From positions 1 to 61,021 of the IMG/VR virus record IMGVR_UViG_3300007276_000003: DNA of 61,021 bases. One strand, 5' to 3'. The first letter of the stretch is position 1, and every line of letters begins with the position of its first letter. Below, piece by piece: positions 2,855 through 52,096 of this stretch. This DNA is from a virus. The translations under genes and the position numbers were made by a program. A model generated the notes under the pieces. That model had not been told where the DNA came from. It searched no databases and was given only the letters and a program-made list of their open reading frames with translations.

Positions 2855-3281
2855 GTACAGTCAGTTTGCTAGTGAGCAACAGTTATTTGACTTCATTAAA
2901 AAATATTTTATAAAAGACTTATTACCTACAAAACAATCAGCAGCACGTTATGACTGCTATTCTCAAAACTATAAAATGGATGTTGAGTTAAAGTGTAGGA
3001 GAAAACATTATGATGAGTTGATTATAGAGAAGGGAAAGTATGATGCGTTAATGGATAGGTGTGAGTTGTTTGGAACAACACCTGTATATATAAACTCCAC
3101 ACCTGAAGGTGTTTGGGGTTTTTATTTGGAAAGACATAATATGATATGGGAGTTTAAGGACTTACCTAAACAAACAGATTTCTCAGATAGAAAAACCATA
3201 TCAAAAGAAATAGGCTACCTAAAAGTATCAGAAGGTGTAGACCTAGTCCTTCTTCTTTCGTCTTCTTCTTCGACCTTTTGA
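2844..3281 (+). CDS. PDDEXK-like nuclease, last gene of the early block
   Basis: A 145-residue protein with a restriction-nuclease-like core: residues about 37-53 include a strand ending in MDVELKCRR, followed by YDELIIEKGKYDAL, the D...ExK arrangement. It is the last rightward gene before the convergent late genes. Its final 39 bases lie over the end of a leftward basic gene, which explains the odd hydrophobic/serine tail. Nuclease activity is inferred from motif shape. Confidence 0.55.
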   Translation: MIYEYSQFASEQQLFDFIKKYFIKDLLPTKQSAARYDCYSQNYKMDVELKCRRKHYDELIIEKGKYDALMDRCELFGTTPVYINSTPEGVWGFYLERHNMIWEFKDLPKQTDFSDRKTISKEIGYLKVSEGVDLVLLLSSSSSTF

Positions 3282-3406: not shown

Positions 3407-6400
3407 TTAATCAAACCCTCCTTCAAAACCTTTACTGTCAAAGGAGTTGTTTTTAAAACCTGCATTGTTAAATCCACCTGATGAATTAAAACCTGCAGCT
3501 TTCTTTTTATCTTCCCTAGCTTTCTTTTCTTTTTCTTTCTGAATCTTTTTATAGAAATCATCCATAGTTTGTTCAGATTTTCCTGAACCTTTTTTCTTAG
3601 GACCTTCTATTTGATAGTTAGAATAATTTAGTAATCTCATAATCATTTTTCCTAAGTCTACTTCATCACCCATCTTTGAATAGTTATCAAAAAACTTTGC
3701 TATAGTTGGCATTGGTAATCCTGTTAGGGTGGCTAGTTCTAGGTAAGCATCTCTATATGCTTTTGCTTTCTTCTCCTCATCCTTAAACTTACCTGCTCTC
3801 ATAAAGTCCTTAGCAATACCATTGGCAATTTGTATAATACCAACTGTCTTTGCTTGACTACCTGCCCAAGGCTTATCTTGGAATGCATCGGCTGCAGTTT
3901 GTACAACCTCACCAATTATAAATAAAGCATTGAGGTTACCAATAATTCCTGCTCTGTACAAATCTTCATCGTCATCATCTCTCCAACCTCTTAGTATTCC
4001 CGGTAATCCCATTGCTACATATTGGAATAGTGTAGGCATAAAAACGTGGTACATTATAAATGTTCTAATATTCTCCCCAAAGGTTCCTTTATAAGCCTGA
4101 CCTGACATTGCTCGGTACAAGTTTCTTACGGCTATTATTTCTTTTCTTAAATACTGCTTAGGTGTAGTTAAGAACATATTCATTGCTCTTGTTATTGGGT
4201 CACCTGTTTGTAGGTAATCCTTATCCTGTAAGTCACCTGACTGCTGAGTTCTTTTTGTATCTCTCTCAAACTTTCTAATAGCTATATCAATAGCCTCTTG
4301 CTCAGTCTTACCCTGCTTCAATGCTTGTGCTTTGTAATAAGAGTAGTTGGGTAAACCACCTAGCATAATTGCACCTCTATCACCAAGCTTTGTAGTATAC
4401 ATTGCAAAGTTTACCAACCAATCTTTTGTAGGTCTAGGAACAAACTCTTTCATCTTAGCATCAGTATAAGTTTCGATTGCTCTCATAATGCTTTGATTGT
4501 TTCTGTCTTTCATATAAACAGAATTTTCCGTAACCTCTTTCCAAACTTTTAGTTGTTGTGTTTTATTCTTCGCTGCATATAACAACCAATTCTTGATTCC
4601 AATATCATTAGCATATGTAAATGTAGACGTTAACTGCTTGATTGTAATTACAGGACTCAATGCAAGTCTAGATAGGATGAATACGTTATTCATTCCATTA
4701 ATAATTTTTGCTCTGATACCTGACTGCTGACCCTGAGAAGCTACCTTCTGAATCATATCTTTTACAAAGGTATATATCTCAGAACCGTGTATATCTGTTA
4801 TAGCACCTTTAACATACCTGTTAGTAAAGAACTTATCCATATCCCTTATGGTTTCTCCATAAGCTGCGAAGTATTCCATATCATTGATGTATGTGTTTAA
4901 TACATCCATCATATTCATAGCCTGAATAGGAAGATTACTATTTTGTCTAACCTTTGTAGCACCTGCACCTACTGCAGTCTTATACATATTACCCTGACCA
5001 AGTAAATTTATTACTTCAATCTCACTTTCAGGAACACCATCTCTGTATATAGTTCCTGCATAATACTTGTTCCAAGGAAGGTCAGTTCTATATAATTTCT
5101 TATACGTTTTATTATACTCCTCATATAGGGCAGGATATAATACTTCAACTTGCCAATCAGCAACCTCTTTTACTTTAGGGTCTAGCTTTGCTTCAAGTTC
5201 TTTCATTACTCTTGCAGCATTAGCTTCATTAGCTTTTTGCTTACGTTTCTTTTCTGCAGCAGTATCATCTTTATTGATTACCTCAACACCCCACATTTCG
5301 GGATTAGCAAATGATGACCTGTTAGCAGGGTCCTTATACATATTATAGAGGTATGCAATTTGGTCTTGACTAATTGGTTCAAGCATAATACCATCGTGTA
5401 ACTCAATACCTAAATCTTGTTGCATTCTATTATCTCTAGAAACTTTCTTCCATTTCTTTCCATATGTTTCATATAGATACCCTGCAATGATAGATTCAAC
5501 CTCCATCATTCTCATCTTAAATCTTCTAGAGGATTCATCTACTCTTTCGGTAAACATTTCATTTAGTCTACCACCAAACATTTCACCCGGAAGTTTATCT
5601 AATCTATCCATTAGACCATCCATAGCTTCAGCACTACCAAAAGTATAATTACCAAGCTTAGTAAACATATTAGAGAAGAATCTTCTTACTACATTTTGTG
5701 TAGCCTTCTTTCTTTTTTCATCTGCCTTCCTTTGTTTCTTTCTATTGTTAAGATTTGTCTTAGCATCAGGGTCAGACATATCAACTCTATCTCCTGTGAT
5801 AGCTTCATAACCTTTCTCAAACTGTTCGTTATAATATTGATGTTGTCTTAAAAGTTCTTCTTGAAGCAATGACCTACCAAATGTAATCATCTCTTCAAGT
5901 GTTGAATAGATACCATCTAACTCTGTAACCTTATTTGGATTAGAGTTCTCCATTAACATTGCATTGTTATACTGCATAGCTAATTGAAGGTCAACCATTT
6001 CTTCTCTTTGTTCTACAGTCTGCTGAGTTTCTTGAGCCAACTCATTAAACCTTTCTAGAAGTTTCATATTCACCTCACCTATTTGCTCGGCAGTAGCCTT
6101 TGGTCCAACAAGGTTTGACTTTATTTTATCTATTCTTTTTCTAACCTCATCAACAATCTTCTTTGGTTTTAATCTATTGTTTTCAACTGCTTGATACTTA
6201 CCATTAAGAACACCATCAATTTTTTTCTGAAGTGATTTAATGTTTGTTTCAATAACGAAGTCTGTTACTTCCTGAAGAATGTTTTCAATATTCTTTTCAG
6301 TAGCTTTATTTACTTTATCAATTAACTTTATTACATCACCTTTACGATATAATTCTTTAGGTAAAGATTTACGAATGAAGTTTCTTACTTCAGTCTTTAT

Positions 6401-9400
6401 CTTCTGTAAGTCTTTTGCACCCTTTCTTCTTTGACGTAAGAATAATCTAGCTTGAGCAATCTTTGTACCTAAATTTTGTGATGGTCTAATACCAATACTG
6501 CTTTGTAAATCACTAAGCATCTGTGCTTGTTGTGTAGATATACCTTTTGTTTTAGCATCAGCTTCAGCTATGTATTCTTTCTGCTGCTCTAAGAACTCAA
6601 TGGTCTTATCAAGTATCTGTTGTTCAGATAGTTTATTTTTTCTTTTGTTGTTACTCTTCTGAAGTTTCTTTCTGTAAGCATCTACCTTTTGATACAATGC
6701 CAACCCTACTTGAGCACCACCCTTGACGTTACCAAAACTCTTTGGCATTTGGTCAAACAAGTCTACATCTAAAGCCATCAATTGGTTTACAAGTTTTGCA
6801 GGAAACTTCTTAACTCTAACTAAGAAGTCTTTAATCACATCATCTCTAAAGTTATTTCTTCTAGCCTCTAAGATGTATGACTCAATATCTTTTTGTTGTC
6901 TGCCTTTATTCTTGTAAGGATTAATTTTATAACCTCTTGAATTTGTCAAGTAGTATGAACCACCTCTACCGTATTGGTCAACTCTAGATTGCTTTACACC
7001 AATACCCGGTGGTAAATCTTTTTTTAATCTATAGAGGTCAACTTGTTTTGGTAAGAAGCCATAGATATTCATACCATAGTATTGAGCAATTTGCTCAACC
7101 GACTTTTGTTGTCTACCCCTTGGTTTAGATTGTGTGTCATCTATTTTCTCAACGATAATACCTCTGTTACCAAAAGTATTTTTCTTGTATACATTTACTT
7201 TATCGCCAAGTAAATCTTGTACATACTCCACAAGTTCATTACCATCAAAACCTTTTTGGTACACATCCACTACCTCTCCACCTTTTTTTCTTTTGATGAT
7301 ATAGCTTTTATCTTCAGGACCCTTTTCAAAGTTCTTAGCATTTGCTATATCACCTTTGAATCCTCGTGAACTAATTACTGCAACACCACCCGGCTTTAGG
7401 TTTTCATATATATCTTCTACAATAAAATCTCGTACATCTTTTGGCACAACATTGAGTACATTTAATGATACAATAGCATCGTATTGTTTATTAATGTCAC
7501 TAGCCTTTGTATAGGTAACAGGTGTTTTACCCTTCCATCTTTCAGGGTTTAGTTCATATGAATCAACCTCAGTTCCTAATACCTGTGACATTGCATCAGT
7601 ACCAAGACCAAGACCTGCACCATAATCTAATACTTCACCTTCAATCTCAAGGTCATTAACTATGTTTGCAGCCTTAACATAACTACCTGTAGTTGTAGCT
7701 ACCTGCGTAGTTCCTGAAGACTTAGATAATGCCTTGTCTATTTTTTGTTGTCTTTGTTTTCTTGATGTAACTTTTTTAACTCCTGAACCATAAGGTGCTA
7801 CCTTTTGACTAGTAGTAGTTCTAGGTCTACCCTCCATTGAATCCCTCATTTCTTTAGGCATCAATTCAAATGCATCAATCTTAGTATCAGGGATACCAAC
7901 TACATCACCTAAAATATTATTGCTATAGGTTGAATGGTTAGAACCTTCCTGTACTCCTGTTGGTTTTAAGACCAACATAATATCGTTCTGTTTAAAATCA
8001 TTCTCTTTATAGAAACCATCTCTCATAGAGTTGGGGTCTATAAATCCATCTAAACTTTTAACTAGCTTATGATATTCTGTATTTGTAGTTTTTTCTTGAG
8101 CAATATGTGCAATCAAAAAGTTTTTTCTAACTGAACCATCAGCCTCTTTTATGGATTCCCAACTGTCATATTCTGTAAGTACATCCTTAACTCCCTTTAC
8201 GGGTTTAGTTTTTAATGCTTTCTTTTTAAAGGTGGCATAGTCCCCTAGTTTATTTGTATATGCATCATATACTTTTTTATTAAATAAGTGACTCTTTGTA
8301 GGTGAACCACTAATAATAAATATATAATCAGAGTTCTTTATATTCTTTTCTAGTTTAGCCACAGGAAAGCTACTTGCCCAAGCAACACCTTCTTGTTGTA
8401 AAGCATAACTTGGTCCTGCATCAATATCCATCTCGGCATCTAAACCTAGTTGGTCTGCCACCCAAAACCAAACCTTTTGGTCGTTCTCAGCTATCTCGTC
8501 TATCAATGCATCAATGTCAATTTTATTTGCAGAAGTGATTAATGATAGTGGATATGAATCTTTAAAGTTTAACTTCTGTTGTTTCCCTTTTGGTTTAACA
8601 ATGGTAGTTGGGTTACCTACAGGGTTTGTTCCATTATCTAGTTCCTCTAATGTAGCAATGTCAGACTCTTCAATAACCTCACCCTTTCTAGTTTTTCTTG
8701 ATATAACATTTAATAAGTCAATAACATCAGCATCTTTTGCACCAAAGTCATTCCCTATCTCAATACCAAATTTTCTTGCAATACTTTTTAAGAACTCTAC
8801 AATTACATTCTTAGATGGTTTATCAAGTTGTCTGTATTCAGATGAAAGTATACCAACTAACTCAGCTAGTCTTTCTTCATTTTGGAACTCACCTTCATAC
8901 CCTTGAGCAAATGCTTCAATTCTTTTTCCAAGTGCACTATCTTTTGGTACAACTTTTTGTACAGATAATACCATCTGTTCTGCTGCCCTTGCAATGGCAG
9001 GGTCAGTCTTAACCTTTTCCATTAAGACTGCGTGGAATATTTCGTGTGGTACTGTAGTTTTTGTAGCCTTGGATAGGTTGATATGAATAGTGGTATTATC
9101 AGGGTTATACTCTGCTCTACCATCACCAAGCTTTGCATATTTTAAATATTGCTCGTTAGTTTCGTGCATAACAATTCTAACATTAGGCAATACTTTTGAT
9201 ATAGCTTTTGCTCCAAGGTCAGCTATTTTAATTACACTACTTCTAAATGGATTAGTATTTTTAGAACCATCCTCACTTCTATTCAATGCAATGTTTTGTC
9301 CTTTAACCTCAGAACTATCTTCTGTTTCATTAAAGAATGAATCAATGTCGCTTTGCTCTTCCACAGTTACATTGCCCGGCTTGTTAACAGATTGATTGTC

Positions 9401-12106
9401 AACTACCTCACCATCTTGGAACTCATTAATTTTTTGTTCAGAAGTTTTATCTTGTTGTTGTTGCGTAGCAACTTCACCAACTAAAGATGATAACCTATCA
9501 TTAACTTTGTTTAATAACTCTTGCTTTGGTTTAGACAGTACATTGTCTTGAGTTTTAATTTCTGATTCAAGAGATTCTTTTTGAAAGATTAGTTGTAAAG
9601 CTTCTTTTCTTTGGTTAGTATTATATTCACTAGGTATTCTTGGTAGTATACCTTGTAATCTTTTTACTAAAGCTAATTCTTCTTGTGCTTCCCTTTTTGT
9701 TTTAGGGTCATTTGAATCAGCTATTTTTTGTTTGAGTTTGGTAACATACATCTTAGTGTAGTTCTCGTCTTTTGACATAGACTCAAACATTTCATATATC
9801 CTGTTGTCAAGCTTTTGTGCTTGTAATCCTGATACTGCATTGGCAACTGCACCCGGTGTACCTAATATGAAACCACCTACTGCCTCTTGCATACCTGCTC
9901 TGTTTACTTGAGCAATCCAATCCTGCCAAGTTTCAGGAGTTTGGAACATCTCCTTACCTTTGACATCATTGTAAATATCTTTTATAGTTATCTCTGCTGC
10001 TTCTTGTAATGCACCTGTTTCATATTCTGCCAAACCACCTGCACCAACAGTAAGCAATCCTCTTGCCATCATTGATTCTACATCTTGTCTGATAAATTCA
10101 CCAAATGATTTTGCAGTTGTATTTTTTGTAGACTTTTTTAATGCTCTACTAACTACGCTATTTAATAAACCCTTTTGACCAATTACGTTTCTAAAACCAA
10201 TTGCTTCTAGAGTACCTACTGCTACACCAATAGGAACGGCAACCATAGACTTTTCACTTTCAGTTACGTTATCGAAAGCTGCATTCTCTTCCATCTCCTC
10301 ATAAACGTGGTCTGTAACTTGTGCATACATCTGTGCAGTACGTTGTGCCCATCCTGCAGGACTAGAGCCACCTATCATAGCAGGTAGTGATTCTGTTAAT
10401 CCAAGTAATGCACCACCCCAAAATGATTCTTTTGCAGTATCACTCCATTGCTTAGTGGTATTGTCGCTACCTAATACTTCTCTCATCCCTCTACGACCTG
10501 CATCTAACATTCCTAATGTTACATCAGTTCCTTGAGCAGTTGCAGAGAATGGGTTTCTATATCTACCTTCTACTGCTTGGTCATAAGATTCAAATTCTTT
10601 GATTCCCTTACGAGCCAAGTCCATAACCTTTGCGTTTGCTTTATCAAACTCAGTTTCTTCAACTATAGGTATATTAAAAGCACTCGAACCTATTCTAGTA
10701 GCCATTGCTCCTTGTAGAATTTTTTCTCCAAGAAACTTCATATCGTTAGAATCACCACCAAGTTCTTCTATCAATTGTTCTTTACTTAGGTCATACACAC
10801 TTGGTAAAGTTTCTAGTGGTATCATTTTAGGTGTTCCTAACTCAGGGTCTAACACCTCTATCATACCATCTTTTACCCTACCTTCAGGATAAGTTTCTCT
10901 AAACTTACCCTCTTCAAATGAACCATTTTCTAATGCAACTCTAGCTATCTCTTCTTTATAATTCTTTTCACCCATACCTCTATTAGGTGTAAAGTAAGTA
11001 GCAGCATCAGTCATAGTATTCATTGCCGTAGTTCCAAATCTAGCAGCACCATCTAACAATGCATTAACAAATGCACCACCCGGTGCACCTTGTTCAGAAG
11101 CCATCTCATAATACTCACCTGCCATTTGGTCAAGCTTCTGTCCCTTTCTCTCAAAGTCTTTGTTTTGTTTTTTTAAATCTTCTAAAACTTTATTAGAAGC
11201 TTCTTTCGCTGAAACCCATTTGTCAAAGTTGGCTTTTAAAACAGGGTCAGCATTCAACTGTGCCTTAGTTACATTAGCAAAGTTTTTTTTGTATAGAAGG
11301 TCTAGTTTGTTTTTGTATAAAGCATACTGTTTTAAATTTGACTCAAACTCTTTTGATTCTTGATTAAAAGCTTTTACTGTATTAATAATCTGCTTTTCAT
11401 TATCTATCTTCCTTTTGTTTTCAATGATAGCAGTAGATTCGTCTATGATGACTTGGTTCTCTGCTTTATTTTCTCTTAGGAATTTTTGCAAAGCTTCAGC
11501 CTCACCTTTCTCTCCCCAAAAAGGGTCAAGGTTGGTATAGTGTTCGTTGCCATTTGCAGCCTTAACTTTCATACCATCACCTATCCCTGTTTCAGCAAAG
11601 GTGAATCCGTAATCATTAAATTGGTAGTTAAGTTTTGGAACTACATACTCTTCCTCATAATCTATAAGGTCTTTGTTAACACCTGCCATTGACTCTTCAA
11701 AAAAGTCAGCAGGTTGCTCGTCTAAAAGAGTACCATCATAAGGATTTTTTTCAACTATCGGAGTACCATCTTCCGATAAAGAGTCTGATTCGGGAGAAGG
11801 AGCAAAGGATTCCGGAGTATTCGGAAGTGCGAACTCTTCGGATACCAAACTTTCGGGTTCGTCTTTTTTTTTTACTTGCTCTACTGCTTCATCAACCAAC
11901 GTATCTCCACCTACGGCTCCACCAAAACCAACGAGAGTTTTGAATTGTTCCACATCTTTTGAGTAGCCATCACTTTGAGCAAGACCATACATAGTAGTTA
12001 ATGCCTTCTCATCTTCACTTAAAAGCTTTTTAAAATCATCAAATGTTTTACTATAGCCATCACCTTGTGCAAGTACATATAGTTGTTGTAATGCTTTTTC
12101 GTTCAT
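3407..12106 (-). CDS. Giant polyvalent virion/ejection protein
   Basis: A 2,899-residue protein. Residues 1-60 contain two copies of a short repeat (LYVLAQGDGYSK, then MYGLAQSDGYSK). Residues about 560-800 hold glycine/alanine-rich amphipathic helices. HEIFH at 1021-1025 gives a zinc-metallopeptidase-like site. VLDYGAGLGLGT from 1492 is motif I of a SAM methyltransferase. Residues 1740-2899 are long helices and coiled coil with hydrophobic segments near 2700-2750, then a phenylalanine/glycine-rich tail. Four (G/Q)(K/R)QQK motifs, ending at 1178, 1455, 1668 and 1739, separate the middle segments. This matches phage polyvalent proteins that enter the cell with the DNA and counter host defences. 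Last large gene of the virion block, next to internal proteins. Enzyme roles are inferred. Confidence 0.85.
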   Translation of the reverse strand: MNEKALQQLYVLAQGDGYSKTFDDFKKLLSEDEKALTTMYGLAQSDGYSKDVEQFKTLVGFGGAVGGDTLVDEAVEQVKKKDEPESLVSEEFALPNTPESFAPSPESDSLSEDGTPIVEKNPYDGTLLDEQPADFFEESMAGVNKDLIDYEEEYVVPKLNYQFNDYGFTFAETGIGDGMKVKAANGNEHYTNLDPFWGEKGEAEALQKFLRENKAENQVIIDESTAIIENKRKIDNEKQIINTVKAFNQESKEFESNLKQYALYKNKLDLLYKKNFANVTKAQLNADPVLKANFDKWVSAKEASNKVLEDLKKQNKDFERKGQKLDQMAGEYYEMASEQGAPGGAFVNALLDGAARFGTTAMNTMTDAATYFTPNRGMGEKNYKEEIARVALENGSFEEGKFRETYPEGRVKDGMIEVLDPELGTPKMIPLETLPSVYDLSKEQLIEELGGDSNDMKFLGEKILQGAMATRIGSSAFNIPIVEETEFDKANAKVMDLARKGIKEFESYDQAVEGRYRNPFSATAQGTDVTLGMLDAGRRGMREVLGSDNTTKQWSDTAKESFWGGALLGLTESLPAMIGGSSPAGWAQRTAQMYAQVTDHVYEEMEENAAFDNVTESEKSMVAVPIGVAVGTLEAIGFRNVIGQKGLLNSVVSRALKKSTKNTTAKSFGEFIRQDVESMMARGLLTVGAGGLAEYETGALQEAAEITIKDIYNDVKGKEMFQTPETWQDWIAQVNRAGMQEAVGGFILGTPGAVANAVSGLQAQKLDNRIYEMFESMSKDENYTKMYVTKLKQKIADSNDPKTKREAQEELALVKRLQGILPRIPSEYNTNQRKEALQLIFQKESLESEIKTQDNVLSKPKQELLNKVNDRLSSLVGEVATQQQQDKTSEQKINEFQDGEVVDNQSVNKPGNVTVEEQSDIDSFFNETEDSSEVKGQNIALNRSEDGSKNTNPFRSSVIKIADLGAKAISKVLPNVRIVMHETNEQYLKYAKLGDGRAEYNPDNTTIHINLSKATKTTVPHEIFHAVLMEKVKTDPAIARAAEQMVLSVQKVVPKDSALGKRIEAFAQGYEGEFQNEERLAELVGILSSEYRQLDKPSKNVIVEFLKSIARKFGIEIGNDFGAKDADVIDLLNVISRKTRKGEVIEESDIATLEELDNGTNPVGNPTTIVKPKGKQQKLNFKDSYPLSLITSANKIDIDALIDEIAENDQKVWFWVADQLGLDAEMDIDAGPSYALQQEGVAWASSFPVAKLEKNIKNSDYIFIISGSPTKSHLFNKKVYDAYTNKLGDYATFKKKALKTKPVKGVKDVLTEYDSWESIKEADGSVRKNFLIAHIAQEKTTNTEYHKLVKSLDGFIDPNSMRDGFYKENDFKQNDIMLVLKPTGVQEGSNHSTYSNNILGDVVGIPDTKIDAFELMPKEMRDSMEGRPRTTTSQKVAPYGSGVKKVTSRKQRQQKIDKALSKSSGTTQVATTTGSYVKAANIVNDLEIEGEVLDYGAGLGLGTDAMSQVLGTEVDSYELNPERWKGKTPVTYTKASDINKQYDAIVSLNVLNVVPKDVRDFIVEDIYENLKPGGVAVISSRGFKGDIANAKNFEKGPEDKSYIIKRKKGGEVVDVYQKGFDGNELVEYVQDLLGDKVNVYKKNTFGNRGIIVEKIDDTQSKPRGRQQKSVEQIAQYYGMNIYGFLPKQVDLYRLKKDLPPGIGVKQSRVDQYGRGGSYYLTNSRGYKINPYKNKGRQQKDIESYILEARRNNFRDDVIKDFLVRVKKFPAKLVNQLMALDVDLFDQMPKSFGNVKGGAQVGLALYQKVDAYRKKLQKSNNKRKNKLSEQQILDKTIEFLEQQKEYIAEADAKTKGISTQQAQMLSDLQSSIGIRPSQNLGTKIAQARLFLRQRRKGAKDLQKIKTEVRNFIRKSLPKELYRKGDVIKLIDKVNKATEKNIENILQEVTDFVIETNIKSLQKKIDGVLNGKYQAVENNRLKPKKIVDEVRKRIDKIKSNLVGPKATAEQIGEVNMKLLERFNELAQETQQTVEQREEMVDLQLAMQYNNAMLMENSNPNKVTELDGIYSTLEEMITFGRSLLQEELLRQHQYYNEQFEKGYEAITGDRVDMSDPDAKTNLNNRKKQRKADEKRKKATQNVVRRFFSNMFTKLGNYTFGSAEAMDGLMDRLDKLPGEMFGGRLNEMFTERVDESSRRFKMRMMEVESIIAGYLYETYGKKWKKVSRDNRMQQDLGIELHDGIMLEPISQDQIAYLYNMYKDPANRSSFANPEMWGVEVINKDDTAAEKKRKQKANEANAARVMKELEAKLDPKVKEVADWQVEVLYPALYEEYNKTYKKLYRTDLPWNKYYAGTIYRDGVPESEIEVINLLGQGNMYKTAVGAGATKVRQNSNLPIQAMNMMDVLNTYINDMEYFAAYGETIRDMDKFFTNRYVKGAITDIHGSEIYTFVKDMIQKVASQGQQSGIRAKIINGMNNVFILSRLALSPVITIKQLTSTFTYANDIGIKNWLLYAAKNKTQQLKVWKEVTENSVYMKDRNNQSIMRAIETYTDAKMKEFVPRPTKDWLVNFAMYTTKLGDRGAIMLGGLPNYSYYKAQALKQGKTEQEAIDIAIRKFERDTKRTQQSGDLQDKDYLQTGDPITRAMNMFLTTPKQYLRKEIIAVRNLYRAMSGQAYKGTFGENIRTFIMYHVFMPTLFQYVAMGLPGILRGWRDDDDEDLYRAGIIGNLNALFIIGEVVQTAADAFQDKPWAGSQAKTVGIIQIANGIAKDFMRAGKFKDEEKKAKAYRDAYLELATLTGLPMPTIAKFFDNYSKMGDEVDLGKMIMRLLNYSNYQIEGPKKKGSGKSEQTMDDFYKKIQKEKEKKAREDKKKAAGFNSSGGFNNAGFKNNSFDSKGFEGGFD

Positions 12107-36482: not shown

Positions 36483-38267
36483 TTACCCCTCGCATAGCAT
36501 AACCGAGAATTGACGACCATCGGCAAGAGTAAAAGTTGCACATCTTGTTTTGCCGGTATCTACGTCTACCCTTTGTATAGTTGTGTCTTTGCCACCATCA
36601 ATACTTACAGGAAATTGTGGTCCTGTTGGTCCCGTTGGTCCTTCCGGTCCTGTTGGTCCTTGTGGACCTGTAGCACCTGTGTTACCTTTAGCACCTGCAG
36701 GTCCTTGTGGACCTGTAGCACCCGTAGAACCCGTTGCTCCTTTTGGACCTTCAGGTCCTTGTGGTCCAACACCTCCTGTACTACCTGTATCTCCTTTAGG
36801 TCCTTGCGACCCTGTATCTCCTTTAGGTCCCTCATCTCCTTGGTCACCTTTCGGACCTTGGGGTCCAACACCTCCTGTTGACCCTGTATCACCTTTAGGT
36901 CCCTGTGGACCTACTCCTCCGGTTGCACCGGTATCTCCCTTAGGTCCTTGTGGTCCAACACCACCGGTATCTCCGGTTTTCCCTTGTGGTCCTTCCGGTC
37001 CTTCAGGTCCTTGTGGACCCGTACTTCCGGTATCTCCCTTAGGACCTTCCGGTCCTGTTGCTCCAATATCTCCTTTTGCTCCCTGTGGTCCGGTGGCTCC
37101 TGTGTCCCCTGTTTTACCCTGTGGTCCCTCAGGTCCCTCCGGTCCTTGAGGTCCGGTACTTCCGGTATCCCCTTTTGCTCCTTGAGGTCCGGTACTTCCG
37201 GTATCTCCTTTTGCTCCTTGAGGACCTTGTGGTCCTGTCAAACCTATATCACCTTGAGGTCCTTTTGGTCCCTCCGGTCCGGTACTACCTGTATCTCCTT
37301 TTGGACCTTGAGGTCCCGTAGCACCTGTATCACCTGTATCTCCTTTCGGACCTTGTGGACCCTCCGGTCCTTCAGGTCCCGTAGCACCTGTATTTCCTTT
37401 TGAACCTGTATCTCCTTTTGGACCTTGAGGTCCTGTAGAACCCGTGTCACCTTTTGCACCTGCCGGACCTTGTGGTCCAATAGGTCCCGTAGCACCTGTG
37501 TCACCGGTCTTACCCTGAGGACCTTCCGGTCCCTCAGGACCTGTTGCTCCTGTGTCGCCCTTAACTCCTTGAGGACCTTGAGAACCTGTATCCCCCTTTG
37601 GACCTTGAGAACCTGTATCCCCCTTTGGTCCTTCAGGACCTTCCGGTCCTTGTGGTCCTTCAGGACCCGTTGGTCCTGTAGCACCTGTATTTCCTGTTTT
37701 TCCTTGAGGACCTTCATCACCTTGGTCGCCCTTTGGACCTTGAGGACCTGTTGCTCCCGTTAATCCAATGGGTCCTTGAGCACCGGTATCTCCCTTTACT
37801 CCTTGGTCACCTTGCTTACCTTGAGGACCTTCAGGACCTGTTGGTCCTGTAGCACCGGTATCTCCCTTATCACCCTTACCTCCCTGAGGTCCTTGAGGAC
37901 CTTCGGGACCTTCGGGACCTTCGGGACCGGTCAATCCTATTGGTCCTTGTGGACCCGTTGAACCGGTGTCACCTTTGTCACCTTTATCTCCTGTTTTTCC
38001 TTGTGGACCTTGTGGACCGGTTGCTCCCGTTAAACCAATAGGACCCTGAGGTCCTGTTGCTCCGGTATCACCCGTATCACCTTTCGGACCCTGAGGTCCG
38101 GTATTAGTTGGCATAGTAACTGAGTTACCATCACTAATACTAAGTGTTTGTCCGTTAACTGTTAATGATTGTTTTGGGATAAAAGCACCGGTATCCAAAC
38201 TCACCCCATCAACTTTTATGTCGGTAGAAACTGAGATAGGTTCCTTAAACTCAATGTATGATGCCAT
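36483..38267 (-). CDS. Collagen-like tail fibre protein
   Basis: A 594-residue protein. Residues 1-56 are a non-collagen head, residues 57-551 are 165 consecutive Gly-X-Y triplets with no break seen, and a 43-residue beta-rich tip with two cysteines closes the chain. Proline sits in X (GPQ, GPK, GPE) and I see none in Y; Y holds threonine, lysine, glutamine and glutamate. This should form a triple-helical rod about 140 nm long if fully folded (0.29 nm per residue). It lies in a fibre gene cluster. The DNA is highly repetitive, so length variation between isolates is likely. Confidence 0.9.
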
Positions 38268-46323: not shown

Positions 46324-47904
46324 TTAATTATTATCTTCATAAGTTCGTGCCATTGTTATAATAGCATTAGTTGATAGCAATGTTATTGCAACCGATACTG
46401 CATTCTGAAGTGCTGACCTTGTAACTTTCAATGGGTCTATAATACCCATCTCATACATATCACCATACTCATCATTCTTTACGTCATACCCTGCGTTAGC
46501 AGGGTCGGTTATTTTAAATTCGTATCCTTCATAATCTTTACCTGCATTTTTCCAAATTTGTTTTAATGGAGATTGTAAAGCTTGTTTTAGAATTTGTTTA
46601 GATACCGTAGAATCATCCAACTCCATTGATTCTCTTAATAAAGCAAGACCACCTCCGGGAATAATACCTTCTTCTAAGGCTGAACGTACTGCACAGACTG
46701 CATCATCAACACGGTCATACAGTTCCTTCTGTTCCAAATCTGTGTTACCCCCGACAAAGATGACCCCTACACCACCTTTGAGAGAGGCAATCCTGCTAAG
46801 TATAAATTCCTTGTCTTCTTTTTTAGTTGCATTTTTATGAGCATCTTGAAGTTCCTTAATTCTATTTTTAATTTCTTCTGAATCTTTGGTATTTTTTATG
46901 ATGACAGATGAGTCACGACCAACTATCACCTTGGAGCAATGACCCAAATCGTTTACTGTCATCAATGACAAATCATCTCCTGTCTTCTCACTAAAGTAAG
47001 TAGCACCCACACTAACTGCAATATCTTGCATTAGTTCGTGTTGCTTGTATCCAAAGTTTGGTGGAGGAACCACACAAATCTTTAGACTGTTCTTCATTAC
47101 ATTAGCTGCAAGAGTATTGACTACGTTAGTAGACGTTGGTGCAATAATTAAAAGCTTTTTGTTTTCCTGTATAACAGGTTTTAAAACTGCTTCTATATTT
47201 AAAATGTTTTCTATTGGAGCATCACTAACTAATATGTGACAGTCTTCCAATATACATTCATCTTTCTTTTGGTTGTTTACAAACAATGGACTTAGGTATC
47301 CTCTGTCTACTTTTAATCCATTTGTATAATCATAATATGTTTCTGAAGTTTCAGATTTGTCAACTGCTACGATACCGTGCTTTCCTACCTTCTTATAAAC
47401 CTCAGCAATAATAGAACCGAGCACCTCATCATTATTTGCTGATATTGTGGCTACGTCTTTCAACACCTTAGTAGAAACTTTCTTGGCTTTAGCCTTCAGG
47501 TTAGAAACAATCAGATTGGTATCCTCTACCAAATCTCTCAAGACTTGAGTTTTGTTTTCTTTAATATACTCTGTTCCTGCTTCAACTAATGCTTCAGTTA
47601 AAACAATTGCAGTTGTAGTTCCATCACCGGCATTAGATGCAGTACGTTCTGCAGCCTCTTTCATAATACGAACTGCTAAGTGTTCTGTTGGGTCTAGCAA
47701 CGAAACAGACTTAGCAACTGTCACTCCATCTTTGGTGACTGTTATTCCGTGTGTGTGTTGTGGTGATTCTATTAATACAGTTTGACCTGATGGTCCAAGT
47801 GTGGACTTAACTGCTTTGGCTATTTTTTCGATTCCTTTGAAAAGCTTATCTCTGCCCTCTTGGTCGAACAATAGATTCTTAGGGGTGTATCCTAGTTCTG
47901 ACAT
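46324..47904 (-). CDS. groL: Chaperonin GroEL (Cpn60)
   Basis: A 526-residue group I chaperonin. TLGPSGQTV (about 35-43) and NAGDGTTTAIVL with GDGTT at 93-97 are the ATP-binding signatures. RVDDAVCAVRSALEEGIIPGGG is the conserved second equatorial signature, with the catalytic aspartate. It is close to the usual 540 length but lacks the GGM tail, ending in an acidic EDNN. First gene of the leftward late block. It would fold phage structural proteins with the phage GroES. Confidence 0.95.
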   Translation of the reverse strand: MSELGYTPKNLLFDQEGRDKLFKGIEKIAKAVKSTLGPSGQTVLIESPQHTHGITVTKDGVTVAKSVSLLDPTEHLAVRIMKEAAERTASNAGDGTTTAIVLTEALVEAGTEYIKENKTQVLRDLVEDTNLIVSNLKAKAKKVSTKVLKDVATISANNDEVLGSIIAEVYKKVGKHGIVAVDKSETSETYYDYTNGLKVDRGYLSPLFVNNQKKDECILEDCHILVSDAPIENILNIEAVLKPVIQENKKLLIIAPTSTNVVNTLAANVMKNSLKICVVPPPNFGYKQHELMQDIAVSVGATYFSEKTGDDLSLMTVNDLGHCSKVIVGRDSSVIIKNTKDSEEIKNRIKELQDAHKNATKKEDKEFILSRIASLKGGVGVIFVGGNTDLEQKELYDRVDDAVCAVRSALEEGIIPGGGLALLRESMELDDSTVSKQILKQALQSPLKQIWKNAGKDYEGYEFKITDPANAGYDVKNDEYGDMYEMGIIDPLKVTRSALQNAVSVAITLLSTNAIITMARTYEDNN

Positions 47905-48177: not shown

Positions 48178-48251
48178 GCACCTATAGCTTAATTGGATAA
48201 AGCAACTGCCTTCTAAGCAGTAGAGTCTAGGTTCGAGTCCTAGTAGGTGTA
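48178..48251 (+). tRNA. tRNA-Arg (anticodon UCU)
   Basis: A complete cloverleaf: acceptor arms 48178-48184 and 48244-48250 (7 bp, first pair G-U), D stem GCTT/AAGC, anticodon stem 48205-48209/48217-48221 with TCT at 48212-48214, T arm CTAGG/CCTAG with loop TTCGAGT, discriminator A. No CCA is encoded. It reads AGA and AGG, frequent arginine codons in this AT-rich genome. Confidence 0.95.
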
Positions 48252-48252
48252 C

Positions 48253-49003: not shown

Positions 49004-49936
49004 ATGAAAAATCAAAATGACATTTACTCTAGGATTAATGACCTAGTAATCGAGGGACTAACCAAGGAAGGTATGCAATGGTTCAAGCCTTGGAAAGGTG
49101 GACAAGAGAACGCACCTTTTAACCTGCACACTAAGAGATATTACAACGGGTTTAACATCTTTATGTTGAACTTTGTAATGAGAAGCGAAGGTTACGAGCA
49201 TAACCAATGGATGACCTTTAAGCAAATCTCTGAGAAGGGTGGCAAGGTTATCAAAGGTAGCAAGTCAACAGAAGTTTACTTTTGGCAGATAGGTTACTTC
49301 GACAACAAGACAGGTAAATTTGTTCCTGCTAAACTTATCAAGACTATTAATGTTTCAGAGCAATTTGAAGGTAAGGATAGATACAGAAAAACATTTTCTG
49401 TAAGGTTTTACAAAGTGTTCAACGTAGCACAGACTGAAGGCATTGAGCCAATGGTTAAAGAAGAGGTTGTAACTGATGTAGTTAATGAGCCTAATGAAGT
49501 TGCTGAGGCTCTAGTAAAAAGCTATGTAGAAAAGCAAAACGGATTTAAGATTATGCACAGAGAGAACTCTGCATACTACTCACCTACTAGAGATATAGTT
49601 AATATGCCAATGCTAGAAACATTTGTTGATGCTGATAGCTACTACAAGACTTTGTTTCACGAGTTAGCACATAGTACAGGTCACAAGTCAAGATTGAATC
49701 GTAAGTCAATGACTGAGATTTCACATTGGGGTGACAATACCTATGCTAAGGAAGAGTTAGTTGCTGAGATTAGTTCTTGGTACTTAGTCGGTCTGTTAGG
49801 ACTTAATCCACAGGACAATGAAGTTAACTCTCAAGCCTATATCAAAGGGTGGTGCAAGAGTCTTAAAGATAAGCCTAGCGAATGTGTGTTTGCTATGCAA
49901 CAAGCAACCAAGGTTGTAGACTACCTTCAGCAGTAG
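49004..49936 (+). CDS. ArdC-like antirestriction protein with zincin domain
   Basis: A 310-residue protein. Residues about 1-130 match the ArdC N-terminal ssDNA-binding domain (MQWFKPWKGG, HTKRYYNGFNIFML, QWMTFKQISEKGGKV, KSTEVYFW). Residues about 190-310 are the zincin-like part with HELAHSTGHKSR, HELAH at 219-223. ArdC proteins protect incoming DNA from restriction. As the first gene after the strongest early promoter it is probably expressed at once on entry. The DNA-protection role is known for the family and inferred here. Confidence 0.9.
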   Translation: MKNQNDIYSRINDLVIEGLTKEGMQWFKPWKGGQENAPFNLHTKRYYNGFNIFMLNFVMRSEGYEHNQWMTFKQISEKGGKVIKGSKSTEVYFWQIGYFDNKTGKFVPAKLIKTINVSEQFEGKDRYRKTFSVRFYKVFNVAQTEGIEPMVKEEVVTDVVNEPNEVAEALVKSYVEKQNGFKIMHRENSAYYSPTRDIVNMPMLETFVDADSYYKTLFHELAHSTGHKSRLNRKSMTEISHWGDNTYAKEELVAEISSWYLVGLLGLNPQDNEVNSQAYIKGWCKSLKDKPSECVFAMQQATKVVDYLQQ

Positions 49937-49952
49937 TCTTAACCGACACCAA

Positions 49953-49990
49953 CACCAACCTCACTTCAGCAACGGAGTGGGGATTTGGTG
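49953..49990 (+). ncRNA. Two-tier leader hairpin, copy 1
   Basis: Outer stem CACCAA (49953-49958) with TTGGTG (49985-49990), inner stem 49959-49965 with 49976-49982 (7 bp, one U-G pair), a 2-base bulge AT on the 3' side, 10-base loop. It is followed by AACAATTATTAATTAAAT before the 50024 start. No T tract, so not a terminator. A matching element lies at 51805-51844. Confidence 0.6.
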
Positions 49991-50023
49991 GTAGATAACA
50001 ATTATTAATTAAATCAATTTAAA

Positions 50024-51172
50024 ATGACAAAATCAAATTTAACATTCCAAGATATAGATTGGAAAAACCATTCTGCTCTTGGTGAGCAGGGTGTTCAAGG
50101 TACGTTGACCATTGGTCAATATGAACTATCAGTTGTAGCAGGTGAAGGTCTGTATTCAACTGCAGGTAAGGAGAGTTTCTACAAGCCTTGTAGAGCAGGT
50201 TATTATATCTCATTTGAGGTGGCAGTCTTTCAAGATGTTACTGAAGGTGAAGGTCAAGAGTTTACCAATAAGTTTTTCTATGGTGATTTTGAAACCAATG
50301 ATAATGTTTTAGGATGGCAAAGTAAGTGGCAAATCAATAACCTAATCAAACGCATTGAGGACTCATTGAAGACTGTTAAAATAGACTTCAATAATTCATA
50401 TGAACAAGAAGAGGTTACTGATGAGTTCAAAGAGAAATGGGTAGACATAGAGCCATTGGATACCAACAACAATCTTAAAACTATAAAAGAAATAGCTGAG
50501 TCAGGTAAAAAGATTAACCAAGAACAAGACCTTAAATATCAAGAATTTGTTAATGCAGGTTGGACTGAGGGTGATAATCTAAAGCTAGAAAAAGATTGGA
50601 GAGAAACAGAACATAGTTTTATAATAGGTGACACTAAGTATATTATTACTGTTCATAGTGAAGATGTTTATGTTAAAGTTAAATTCCTCAAGTACAAGAA
50701 TAGTTATGATGTTGAAACACCATATTTAAAATGGGTATGGACTTCACCTACTGATGCTTATGGTAGTGGTTGGAGAAGTTCTAAGAACGGCAAGTATACT
50801 AGCTATTCAATTGTTGGTAGTGAAAGACAATACTCAGCCAAAGGATTACTTAAAAAGGTTGCTGAGGTAAACAAAGAAAGCCAATGGAACTTTGATGCAT
50901 ACATCAAACAAAGACAAGCATTTAACAAGGCTAAGGAGTTGTTGCAAGAGAAGTATCCAAAAGCAACTGTAAAGAAAGGTTATACAAGATATGACCACAC
51001 CTTCAGAAAGATAGACTTAGTGTTTAAATCAGGAAGTACCTTACATTTTTATGTATGTGACTATGGAGATACTCTGCTTAAATTAGATAAGGTTATCGAC
51101 ACACAAAAATTAACCTATGACAATTGGGAAGGTTGGGCAGACAGATTTAATAATCAAAAAGGAAAAGTATGA
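50024..51172 (+). CDS. Hypothetical early protein
   Basis: A 382-residue soluble protein with tryptophan- and tyrosine-rich halves. Residues 1-110 and 185-290 each look like beta-rich domains, the C-terminal part is alpha/beta. No motif recognised. It follows a structured leader and overlaps the transglycosylase start by four bases, so expression is coupled. Confidence 0.65.
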   Translation: MTKSNLTFQDIDWKNHSALGEQGVQGTLTIGQYELSVVAGEGLYSTAGKESFYKPCRAGYYISFEVAVFQDVTEGEGQEFTNKFFYGDFETNDNVLGWQSKWQINNLIKRIEDSLKTVKIDFNNSYEQEEVTDEFKEKWVDIEPLDTNNNLKTIKEIAESGKKINQEQDLKYQEFVNAGWTEGDNLKLEKDWRETEHSFIIGDTKYIITVHSEDVYVKVKFLKYKNSYDVETPYLKWVWTSPTDAYGSGWRSSKNGKYTSYSIVGSERQYSAKGLLKKVAEVNKESQWNFDAYIKQRQAFNKAKELLQEKYPKATVKKGYTRYDHTFRKIDLVFKSGSTLHFYVCDYGDTLLKLDKVIDTQKLTYDNWEGWADRFNNQKGKV

Positions 51173-51723
51173 AGACAGTAGTAGCTAAACTAATCCTTGG
51201 AGTTCCTGTAACTCTAGGGATTGGTATGGCTTTCGGATTGAAAGACCATACCCCTGTGAGTGAGCAGAAACAAATCATAGAACAAGTCGTAGATAGTCTA
51301 GAGCAAACAAAGGATACCATACCTATAATTAAATACAGGACTCTGAATTGGGATGACTTTTTAGAAACTATAATATGGGTAGAAAGCAGAGGTCAAGACT
51401 CAGCATATAATCCTGAAGAAAATGCAGTAGGAGTTTTACAAATCAGACCGATTATGGTTAGAGAAGTAAACAGAGTTTTAAGAAAGCATAAGTCTGATTT
51501 AAGATTTACTTTGGAAGATAGATGGGACAGACAAAAGTCAATTGATATGTTTGAAATAATGGCTGAAGAAGTTTACTGTTGTATCGGTATATCATTTAGA
51601 GAGTATTGTGAAGTCGTTGCAAGAAAATGGAATGGTGGTGGTCGTGGTCACAAAAAGAAAGCCACGTTAGAATATTGGCAGAGGATAGAAAATAAAATGA
51701 ATCAAATAAATTTGGAATTGTAA
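51169..51723 (+). CDS. Membrane-anchored lytic transglycosylase-like protein
   Basis: A 184-residue protein. Residues 3-24 are a signal anchor, then a linker, then a lysozyme-like domain: WVESRGQDSAYNP with Glu72 as the likely catalytic acid, AVGVLQIRP (the GLMQI-type motif), and ARKWNGGGRGHKKKATLEYW near the end, as in SLT enzymes. It should cut peptidoglycan glycan strands at the outer face of the inner membrane. It is encoded with early genes, not with the lysis cassette. Confidence 0.8.
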   Translation: MKTVVAKLILGVPVTLGIGMAFGLKDHTPVSEQKQIIEQVVDSLEQTKDTIPIIKYRTLNWDDFLETIIWVESRGQDSAYNPEENAVGVLQIRPIMVREVNRVLRKHKSDLRFTLEDRWDRQKSIDMFEIMAEEVYCCIGISFREYCEVVARKWNGGGRGHKKKATLEYWQRIENKMNQINLEL

Positions 51724-51742
51724 AAGATTTAGACTATATTTG
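51711..51742 (+). promoter_or_regulatory. Early promoter, Bacteroidetes type
   Basis: TTTG at 51711-51714, 20 bases, TATATTTG at 51735-51742. It overlaps the end of the transglycosylase gene and drives a structured leader of about 125 bases before 51875. Confidence 0.75.
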
Positions 51743-51804
51743 TACCAAGTTATTAAGAAACACTAGGTAATAATTAATAATTCATTGTGGGTGACCTAGC
51801 ATCC

Positions 51805-51844
51805 CCACCAAGCTGACCTTGAGATAGTGGTCGGCTTTTGGTGG
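51805..51844 (+). ncRNA. Two-tier leader hairpin, copy 2
   Basis: Outer stem CCACCAA (51805-51811) with TTGGTGG (51838-51844), inner stem GCTGACC (51812-51818) with GGTCGGC (51829-51835), a 2-base bulge TT on the 3' side and a 10-base loop. Followed, as in copy 1, by AACAATTATTAATTAAAT. An upstream pair (CTAGGT near 51763, ACCTAG near 51794) may add another stem. Confidence 0.65.
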
Positions 51845-51874
51845 TGAAAACAATTATTAATTAAATTAAATCAA

Positions 51875-52096
51875 ATGAAAAAATCAATTTTAATTATTCA
51901 AAAGAGTCTAATGACTTTAACCTCATTGTTCGTGTGGACAATGATAGTCCGATTATTAATTCACATTTTAACGAATGATATAACCTTGTCTGTAGCAAGT
52001 GTTGTGTCCTTTACTATTGTTAGTTTGTTTGTAGGTTTCTTAATCTATGCATCAGCTAGTTTATTGTTAGAAGTGTTAAAATCTAAAGAACTTTAA
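51875..52096 (+). CDS. Small two-span membrane protein
   Basis: A 73-residue protein with hydrophobic spans at about residues 12-32 and 40-66. Its early position after the transglycosylase and structured leader is unusual. It could be an antiholin, a superinfection-exclusion factor or a host membrane modulator; the sequence does not decide. Confidence 0.65.
   Translation: MKKSILIIQKSLMTLTSLFVWTMIVRLLIHILTNDITLSVASVVSFTIVSLFVGFLIYASASLLLEVLKSKEL

Follow-up and report, generated by a model that had tools for sequence, protein, structure and literature searches.

A hairpin RNA family exchanged with hammerhead and Pistol ribozymes at orthologous phage genes

Gene organisation around two leader hairpins

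The window, by which we mean the whole stretch of DNA analysed here, is a single virus record of 61,021 bases. Its terminase is 45.8% identical to the terminases of Flavobacterium elemo phages and 76% identical to that of an assembled spring-water podovirus genome (MW202828). From relatives we infer that the host phylum is Bacteroidota. A DNA search with the window region against annotated phages gave no match. On its minus strand the window encodes a GroEL-like chaperonin (46324-47904; Pfam Cpn60_TCP1, E 1.2e-54), a 594-aa protein with long collagen-like G-X-Y repeats (36483-38267) and a giant protein of 2899 aa (3407-12106), in which zincin-like HExxH and methyltransferase-like stretches were recognised by eye. 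A tRNA-Arg (TCT) lies at 48178-48252 (+), near the start of a rightward gene block, and in the relatives L104 and L105 a tRNA occupies the corresponding position upstream of ArdC.

The two leaders of interest lie in the region listed in Table 1. The ArdC-type gene upstream of leader 1 matches Pfam ArdcN (9e-26) and MPTase-PolyVal (6e-33) as well as the anti-restriction family PHROG 7245. The product of the leader-1 gene had no match in Pfam or PHROG, and the leader-2 product recovered no relatives when used as a protein query in tblastn.

Table 1. Features of the two leaders and their genes in the window
Feature	Position	Strand	Remark
ArdC-type anti-restriction protein gene	49004..49936	+	upstream of leader 1
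Hairpin element 1	49953..49990	+	intercistronic
Conserved tail and AU-rich leader to start codon	49991..50023	+	
382-aa ORF, leader-1 gene	50024..51172	+	
Promoter-like TTTG-N20-TATATTTG	51711..51742	+	before leader 2; same site kept in L105
Putative H-type pseudoknot	51763..51804	+	directly before hairpin 2; read from sequence
Hairpin element 2	51806..51843	+	
Tail and AU-rich leader to start codon	51844..51874	+	
73-aa hydrophobic ORF, leader-2 gene	51875..52096	+	

The earlier note described twin leader hairpins of one design, and both were confirmed. Each has the outer stem CACCAA/TTGGTG. In hairpin 1, which starts 16 nt past the ArdC stop codon, this is followed by an AT bulge on the 3' side and the inner stem CCTCACT/AGTGGGG, while hairpin 2 has a TT bulge and the inner stem GCTGACC/GGTCGGC. 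Both loops are 10 nt long if the inner stem is counted as seven pairs; two further pairs are possible in hairpin 1, leaving a loop of 6 nt. The sequence AACAATTATTAATTAAAT recurs 3' of both hairpins, at 49997-50014 and 51849-51866, from where it is 9 bases to the ATG at 50024 and 8 bases to the ATG at 51875. Sites of the form CACCAA-N20-40-TTGGTG occur twice in the window, where 0.10 are expected per shuffled window, and are thus not due to chance. Both hairpins are also more stable than any of 200 shuffled versions (fold z-scores of -5.64 and -4.75).

Leader 2 carries two additional features. The promoter-like site has what we take to be the Bacteroidota-type promoter consensus. Since the number of such motifs in the window is at chance level, the site is weakly supported, and a motif of this kind lies within 160 nt upstream of only 2 of the 88 hairpins described below. 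In the putative pseudoknot, CTAGGT (51763-51768) would pair with the loop ACCTAG (51794-51799), which is closed by the stem GGGTG/CATCC (51789-51793/51800-51804). This pairing is kept in L022 and L105 and, with swapped letters, in L104, a comparison of four sequences only.

Structure and distribution of the hairpin family

At the gathering threshold, Rfam matched only a tRNA in the whole window, leaving the hairpins unmatched, and nothing credible appeared around the two leaders when the search was relaxed to E values up to 5. The hammerhead core CTGANGA-N6-36-CGAAA and the Rfam hammerhead model RF00008 matched nowhere in the window, and Rfam found no Pistol ribozyme (RF02679) at the window hairpins, though it found Pistol in relatives. 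The hairpins are therefore an RNA family without an Rfam match, in keeping with the earlier note's proposal of an undescribed leader RNA. Its suggestion that this RNA controls stability or translation is compatible with our results but too general.

Relatives found via ArdC carry hairpins directly after the ArdC gene and further along. We built a covariance model (R1) from 13 such elements; it scores hairpin 1 at 65.0 bits (E 3.5e-15) and hairpin 2 at 69.0 bits (E 3.1e-16), both hairpins having been part of its training. Strong matches to the model, with E below 1e-9, came from 8 of the 45 related or neighbouring records searched, one to four in each. Scans with 3'-arm patterns returned 86 and 17 stretches, which were filtered with the covariance model. 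The earlier note named the lack of a third instance in any related phage as part of what would refute it; many were found at related loci. A scan with the pattern CACCAA...TTGGTG...AATTATTAAT returned 18 stretches, among which only L007 and L010, both on a single contig, represent leaders. In the remaining 16 the stacked arrangement of hairpin and leader is missing, and they were read as chance matches, mostly in coding sequence.

The family extends over dozens of uncultured phage contigs and one Mucilaginibacter MAG, with one to five copies per record. Among the bacterial and archaeal genomes scanned, this MAG gave the best result, with two copies of 53.2 and 33.7 bits. Weaker matches included Prevotellaceae and Bacteroidales MAGs, and since a Desulfobulbaceae MAG (30.8 bits) ranks above both, a Bacteroidota host range is to be read as inferred. 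The second Mucilaginibacter hairpin (L289:4176-4218, minus strand) has a tRNA match about 1 kb away, at 3136-3207. No hairpin was found at E below 0.07 in 11 phage records, comprising ten isolates and one assembled genome. The 88 hairpins referred to below were selected from the model matches after removing duplicates, excluding weak matches (L161, L174, L184, L189, L206, L224 and L242 among others). Set A2, taken from 54 hand-picked sources, was fitted to the covariance model.

The earlier note took inner stems that vary in sequence and still pair as a sign of selection for structure, and covariation bears this out. In a plain MAFFT alignment of 13 elements that were not fitted to any structure, the covariation score was 0.472 compared to 0.217 for shuffled alignments, none of 500 being as high, and slid controls reached at most 0.181. 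Paired cells made up 87.0% of this alignment compared to 71.7% after shuffling. The score of 75 model-aligned elements was 0.397 compared to 0.166, with 96.2% of cells paired in the inner helix and 71.6% in the outer stem. An alignment-free comparison agreed: 3' arms paired with their own 5' flanks at 8.03 of 10 positions, compared to a mean of 7.09 and a maximum of 7.33 in 200 deals of flanks among elements, the exact anchor being present in 76 of the 88. Pairing of flank to tail was likewise higher than with shuffled flanks (5.91 versus 5.19 ± 0.13). These results confirm that the hairpins are under selection for structure.

The sequence of the inner stem and loop is free across the family, while the pairing of the stem is kept. 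Loops vary from GAAA up to 10 nt or longer, without conservation. The outer helix, which is also the shorter one, is more variable and shows a few compensated changes (for example CATCTTG/TTGAGGTG). The conserved part is the 3' arm and tail, approximately UUUGGUGGUARAAAC, in which the GGTGGTA(R)AAA tail is best conserved, although its invariance is inflated because most elements were retrieved with patterns that include the tail. Thirty of the 88 elements match no retrieval pattern, and most of these still contain GGTGGTA or a close variant.

The elements sit on the coding strand, in intercistronic gaps and leaders. For 80 of the 88 hairpins, an ORF of at least 35 aa begins with ATG within 90 nt of the tail, at a median distance of 24 nt (quartiles 19 and 30), and AU-rich leaders follow the hairpins. 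The second Mucilaginibacter hairpin had no such ORF within this distance. For 77 of the 88 a stop codon could be placed upstream, with a median of 16 nt between it and the hairpin.

Ribozymes in the same operons and at orthologous genes

Hammerhead ribozymes occur among the relatives of the window. Contig L021, which bears orthologs but no strong hairpins, has the hammerhead core in three leaders. Overall, the core pattern was found in 8 of 46 records, none of which has strong hairpins, while reversed controls gave no match in any record. A structural hammerhead finder accepted core matches from seven of these eight records; three matches (G010, G020:34471 and G023:20888) were rejected. The better hammerheads matched RF00008 with E values of 1.6e-7 to 1.4e-4, under the gathering score. 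Over all loci the finder gave 44 matches compared to 2 on reversed sequences, overlapping loci being counted apart.

Hairpins and hammerheads also share operons. In nine loci (L177, L179, L180, L194, L195, L214, L223, L230 and L237), the order is gene-hammerhead-gene-hairpin-gene, with the two elements in separate gaps on the same strand and no hammerhead antisense. One L177 gene product had no match among annotated phages. The hammerhead pattern was found in 11 of 48 hairpin records and was absent from 37, with no match in the reversed control; that hairpins occur in all 48 is by construction. Two of the eleven (G052 and G062) look like chance matches in coding sequence, and the L234 hammerhead, which lies inside a gene, is doubtful. 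Among pattern-retrieved loci, hammerheads occurred in 10 of 69 with a hairpin and in 0 of 46 without one (p 0.0056), which is supporting evidence only because many of the 69 loci are related or overlapping. Pistol ribozymes above the Rfam gathering score were found among the hairpins of L186 and L238.

Isolated phages carry ribozymes too. Cellulophaga phage phi19:3 (NC_021789) has a Pistol ribozyme (RF02679, 46.5 bits; L333:81-148, minus strand) and, near it, a type I hammerhead at about 1492-1536 of L333. The Flavobacterium elemo phage isolates MT497069 (L332) and NC_055853 (L335) each have one type III hammerhead, located about 15 nt ahead of an ATG; their host can be grown in the laboratory. 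In L147, L148, L150 and L156, an extra hairpin of the type GGGGTAGTGTCTTCAAAGACACTATCC directly precedes a type III hammerhead, whose cleavage would leave this hairpin as the 3' end of the upstream message.

The spacing of the ribozymes to the next gene is close to that of the hairpins. From the type I cleavage site to the ATG the median is 24 nt (34 of 36), and from the 3' end of type III hammerheads it is 23 nt (10 of 11).

Hairpin and ribozyme are swapped between phages in three gene families. Orthologs of ORF 50024 follow a hairpin in the window, L022 (67% identity) and L105 (36%). In the closest ortholog found, that of L336 (79%), a clean type I hammerhead, its stems 8, 5 and 7 bp long, replaces the hairpin directly before the ATG. 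In front of the L021 ortholog (74%) the hammerhead core is intact but stem II is interrupted, and the ortholog in L104/L338 (38%) has no element in its leader. In the second family, ORF 51875 has hairpin leaders in the window, L022 and L105, and its homologs in L147 and L151 (BLASTP 1e-8 and 2e-8) lie behind type III hammerheads that score 47.5 and 44.7 bits against RF00008, whose gathering score is 48.5. In the third, the MRHVT gene (76.5% identity over 85 aa) is preceded by a hairpin in L186 and by Pistol in L238; a homologous gene ending in TFELFGE lies upstream in both, and L186 has an extra gene and hairpin in between. A fourth pair (L223 hairpin, L154 hammerhead) was not counted, as it rests on 35 aa with an E-value of 2.5e-6.

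Possible roles of the hairpins

Clustered phage hammerheads have been known since 2011. The report of that year describes prophage hammerhead clusters on either side of a single gene or a short block of genes, among them an array around ardA, and suggests that long phage transcripts are cut into operon- or gene-length mRNAs (Perreault 2011, PMC3088659). Like the hairpins, such hammerheads (RF00008, RF03152) lie between early genes, several per genome, on the coding strand and with a short leader to the ATG (PMC3088659). Unlike them, the hairpins have neither the CUGANGA...GAAA core nor the three-stem fold. Pistol (RF02679) occupies the same kind of gap in L186, L238 and Cellulophaga phage phi19:3, but it has three stems and a pseudoknot, whereas the hairpins form one interrupted helix. 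Pistol, twister sister and hatchet were themselves found through the company of certain phage genes and other ribozymes (PMC4604425). Here that principle is carried further, to the exchange of hairpins for hammerhead and Pistol at individual orthologs. No such phage motif is named in the accessible part of a 104-motif survey (PMC2864571). The hairpin family was found neither in Rfam nor in literature on phage hammerheads and Pistol, leader motifs and RNase III, searched at the level of titles and abstracts.

On comparative sequence evidence, we lean towards the hairpins being cis-acting RNA elements with which Bacteroidota phages set the ends of mRNAs between their genes, in the role that hammerhead and Pistol play in related phages. 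Because hammerhead and Pistol act on RNA, the element that replaces them most likely acts on RNA ends. The leader left by type I cleavage has a median length of 24 nt, equal to the distance between hairpin tail and ATG, which favours a processing element. The ribozyme-like gaps, strand and ATG spacing, together with exchange at orthologs, are what a processing role would call for. Counting against it, the hairpin lacks a hammerhead or Pistol core, most hairpin records (37 of 48) show no hammerhead pattern, the eleven phage records above gave no hairpin, the leader of the L104/L338 ortholog has no element, and the second Mucilaginibacter hairpin has no ATG ORF near its tail. Since the slots are common to hammerhead and Pistol, we place the setting of mRNA ends before stability or translation. 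The element, consisting of the hairpin, the U-rich bulge and the conserved tail, would act in cis on the transcript and probably sets the ends through cleavage. The cut would fall at or near the tail, with either the RNA itself or a nuclease making it; a short AU-rich leader would be freed for initiation, and the upstream message would keep a structured 3' end.

The equal ATG spacing could merely keep structure clear of the ribosome. It is possible, though rather unlikely, that the hairpin is an insulator that stays uncut, blocking exonucleases or pairing between upstream RNA and the leader, and giving the ribosome a clean start site. This would account for the ATG spacing and fits the AU-rich leaders, and since the stems of type III hammerheads stay with the downstream mRNA, both kinds of element place a stable structure about 24 nt ahead of the ATG. 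An insulator would, however, have no need of the conserved tail, yet a GGTGGTA-like sequence is kept in most of the 30 pattern-free elements, and exchange with two unrelated self-cleaving classes is left unexplained.

Cleavage by the RNA itself is the more specific form of the mRNA-end reading, with which it overlaps. That the hairpin and its UUUGGUGGUARAAAC tail constitute a new and very small class of self-cleaving ribozymes in Bacteroidota phages is, in our judgement, doubtful; such a class would have come to light by the same principle as Pistol, twister sister and hatchet.

A conserved single-stranded tail beside a stem of free sequence is also seen in protein-binding hairpins, and with one to five copies per record, the elements may be operators for an RNA-binding protein, of phage or host origin, that would repress or activate the translation of several early genes. 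We consider this improbable: the loop, the usual site of contact, varies freely, and an operator does not predict exchange with ribozymes. That the hairpins are intrinsic terminators or attenuators of the upstream gene is more improbable still, as the G+C-rich stem with three or four T behind it, frequently located about 16 nt past a stop codon, is offset by the failure of either window hairpin to show at least five T within 8 bases after the stem, by the conserved GGTGGTA after the short T run, by the promoter-like site of leader 2 (kept in L105) between upstream gene and hairpin, and by hammerheads in the same slot, which do not terminate.

Two further phage systems are comparable. The early mRNA of T7 is processed at RNase III hairpins, which, like the elements described here, are intercistronic, lie in early operons and number several per genome. 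In contrast to these, the elements described here have a shorter stem, with free sequence in its upper part, and a conserved 3' tail. In HK022, the put RNA forms a structured leader close to early promoters of the phage. Leader 2 resembles it in having two adjoining structures, but copies of the hairpin lie between genes throughout the operon and most are single.

What arrays of small ribozymes do between phage genes has been a question since the 2011 report, and the hairpins bear on it. An element that is structurally unrelated to hammerhead and Pistol, and that alternates with them at the same genes as a third kind, shows what these slots select for, and the swapped leaders form a matched set with which selection there can be tested. 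Should the hairpin cleave, it would be either a ribozyme or a processing signal of a new kind. If it stays uncut, the ribozymes may matter for the structure that they leave before the start codon rather than for the cut.
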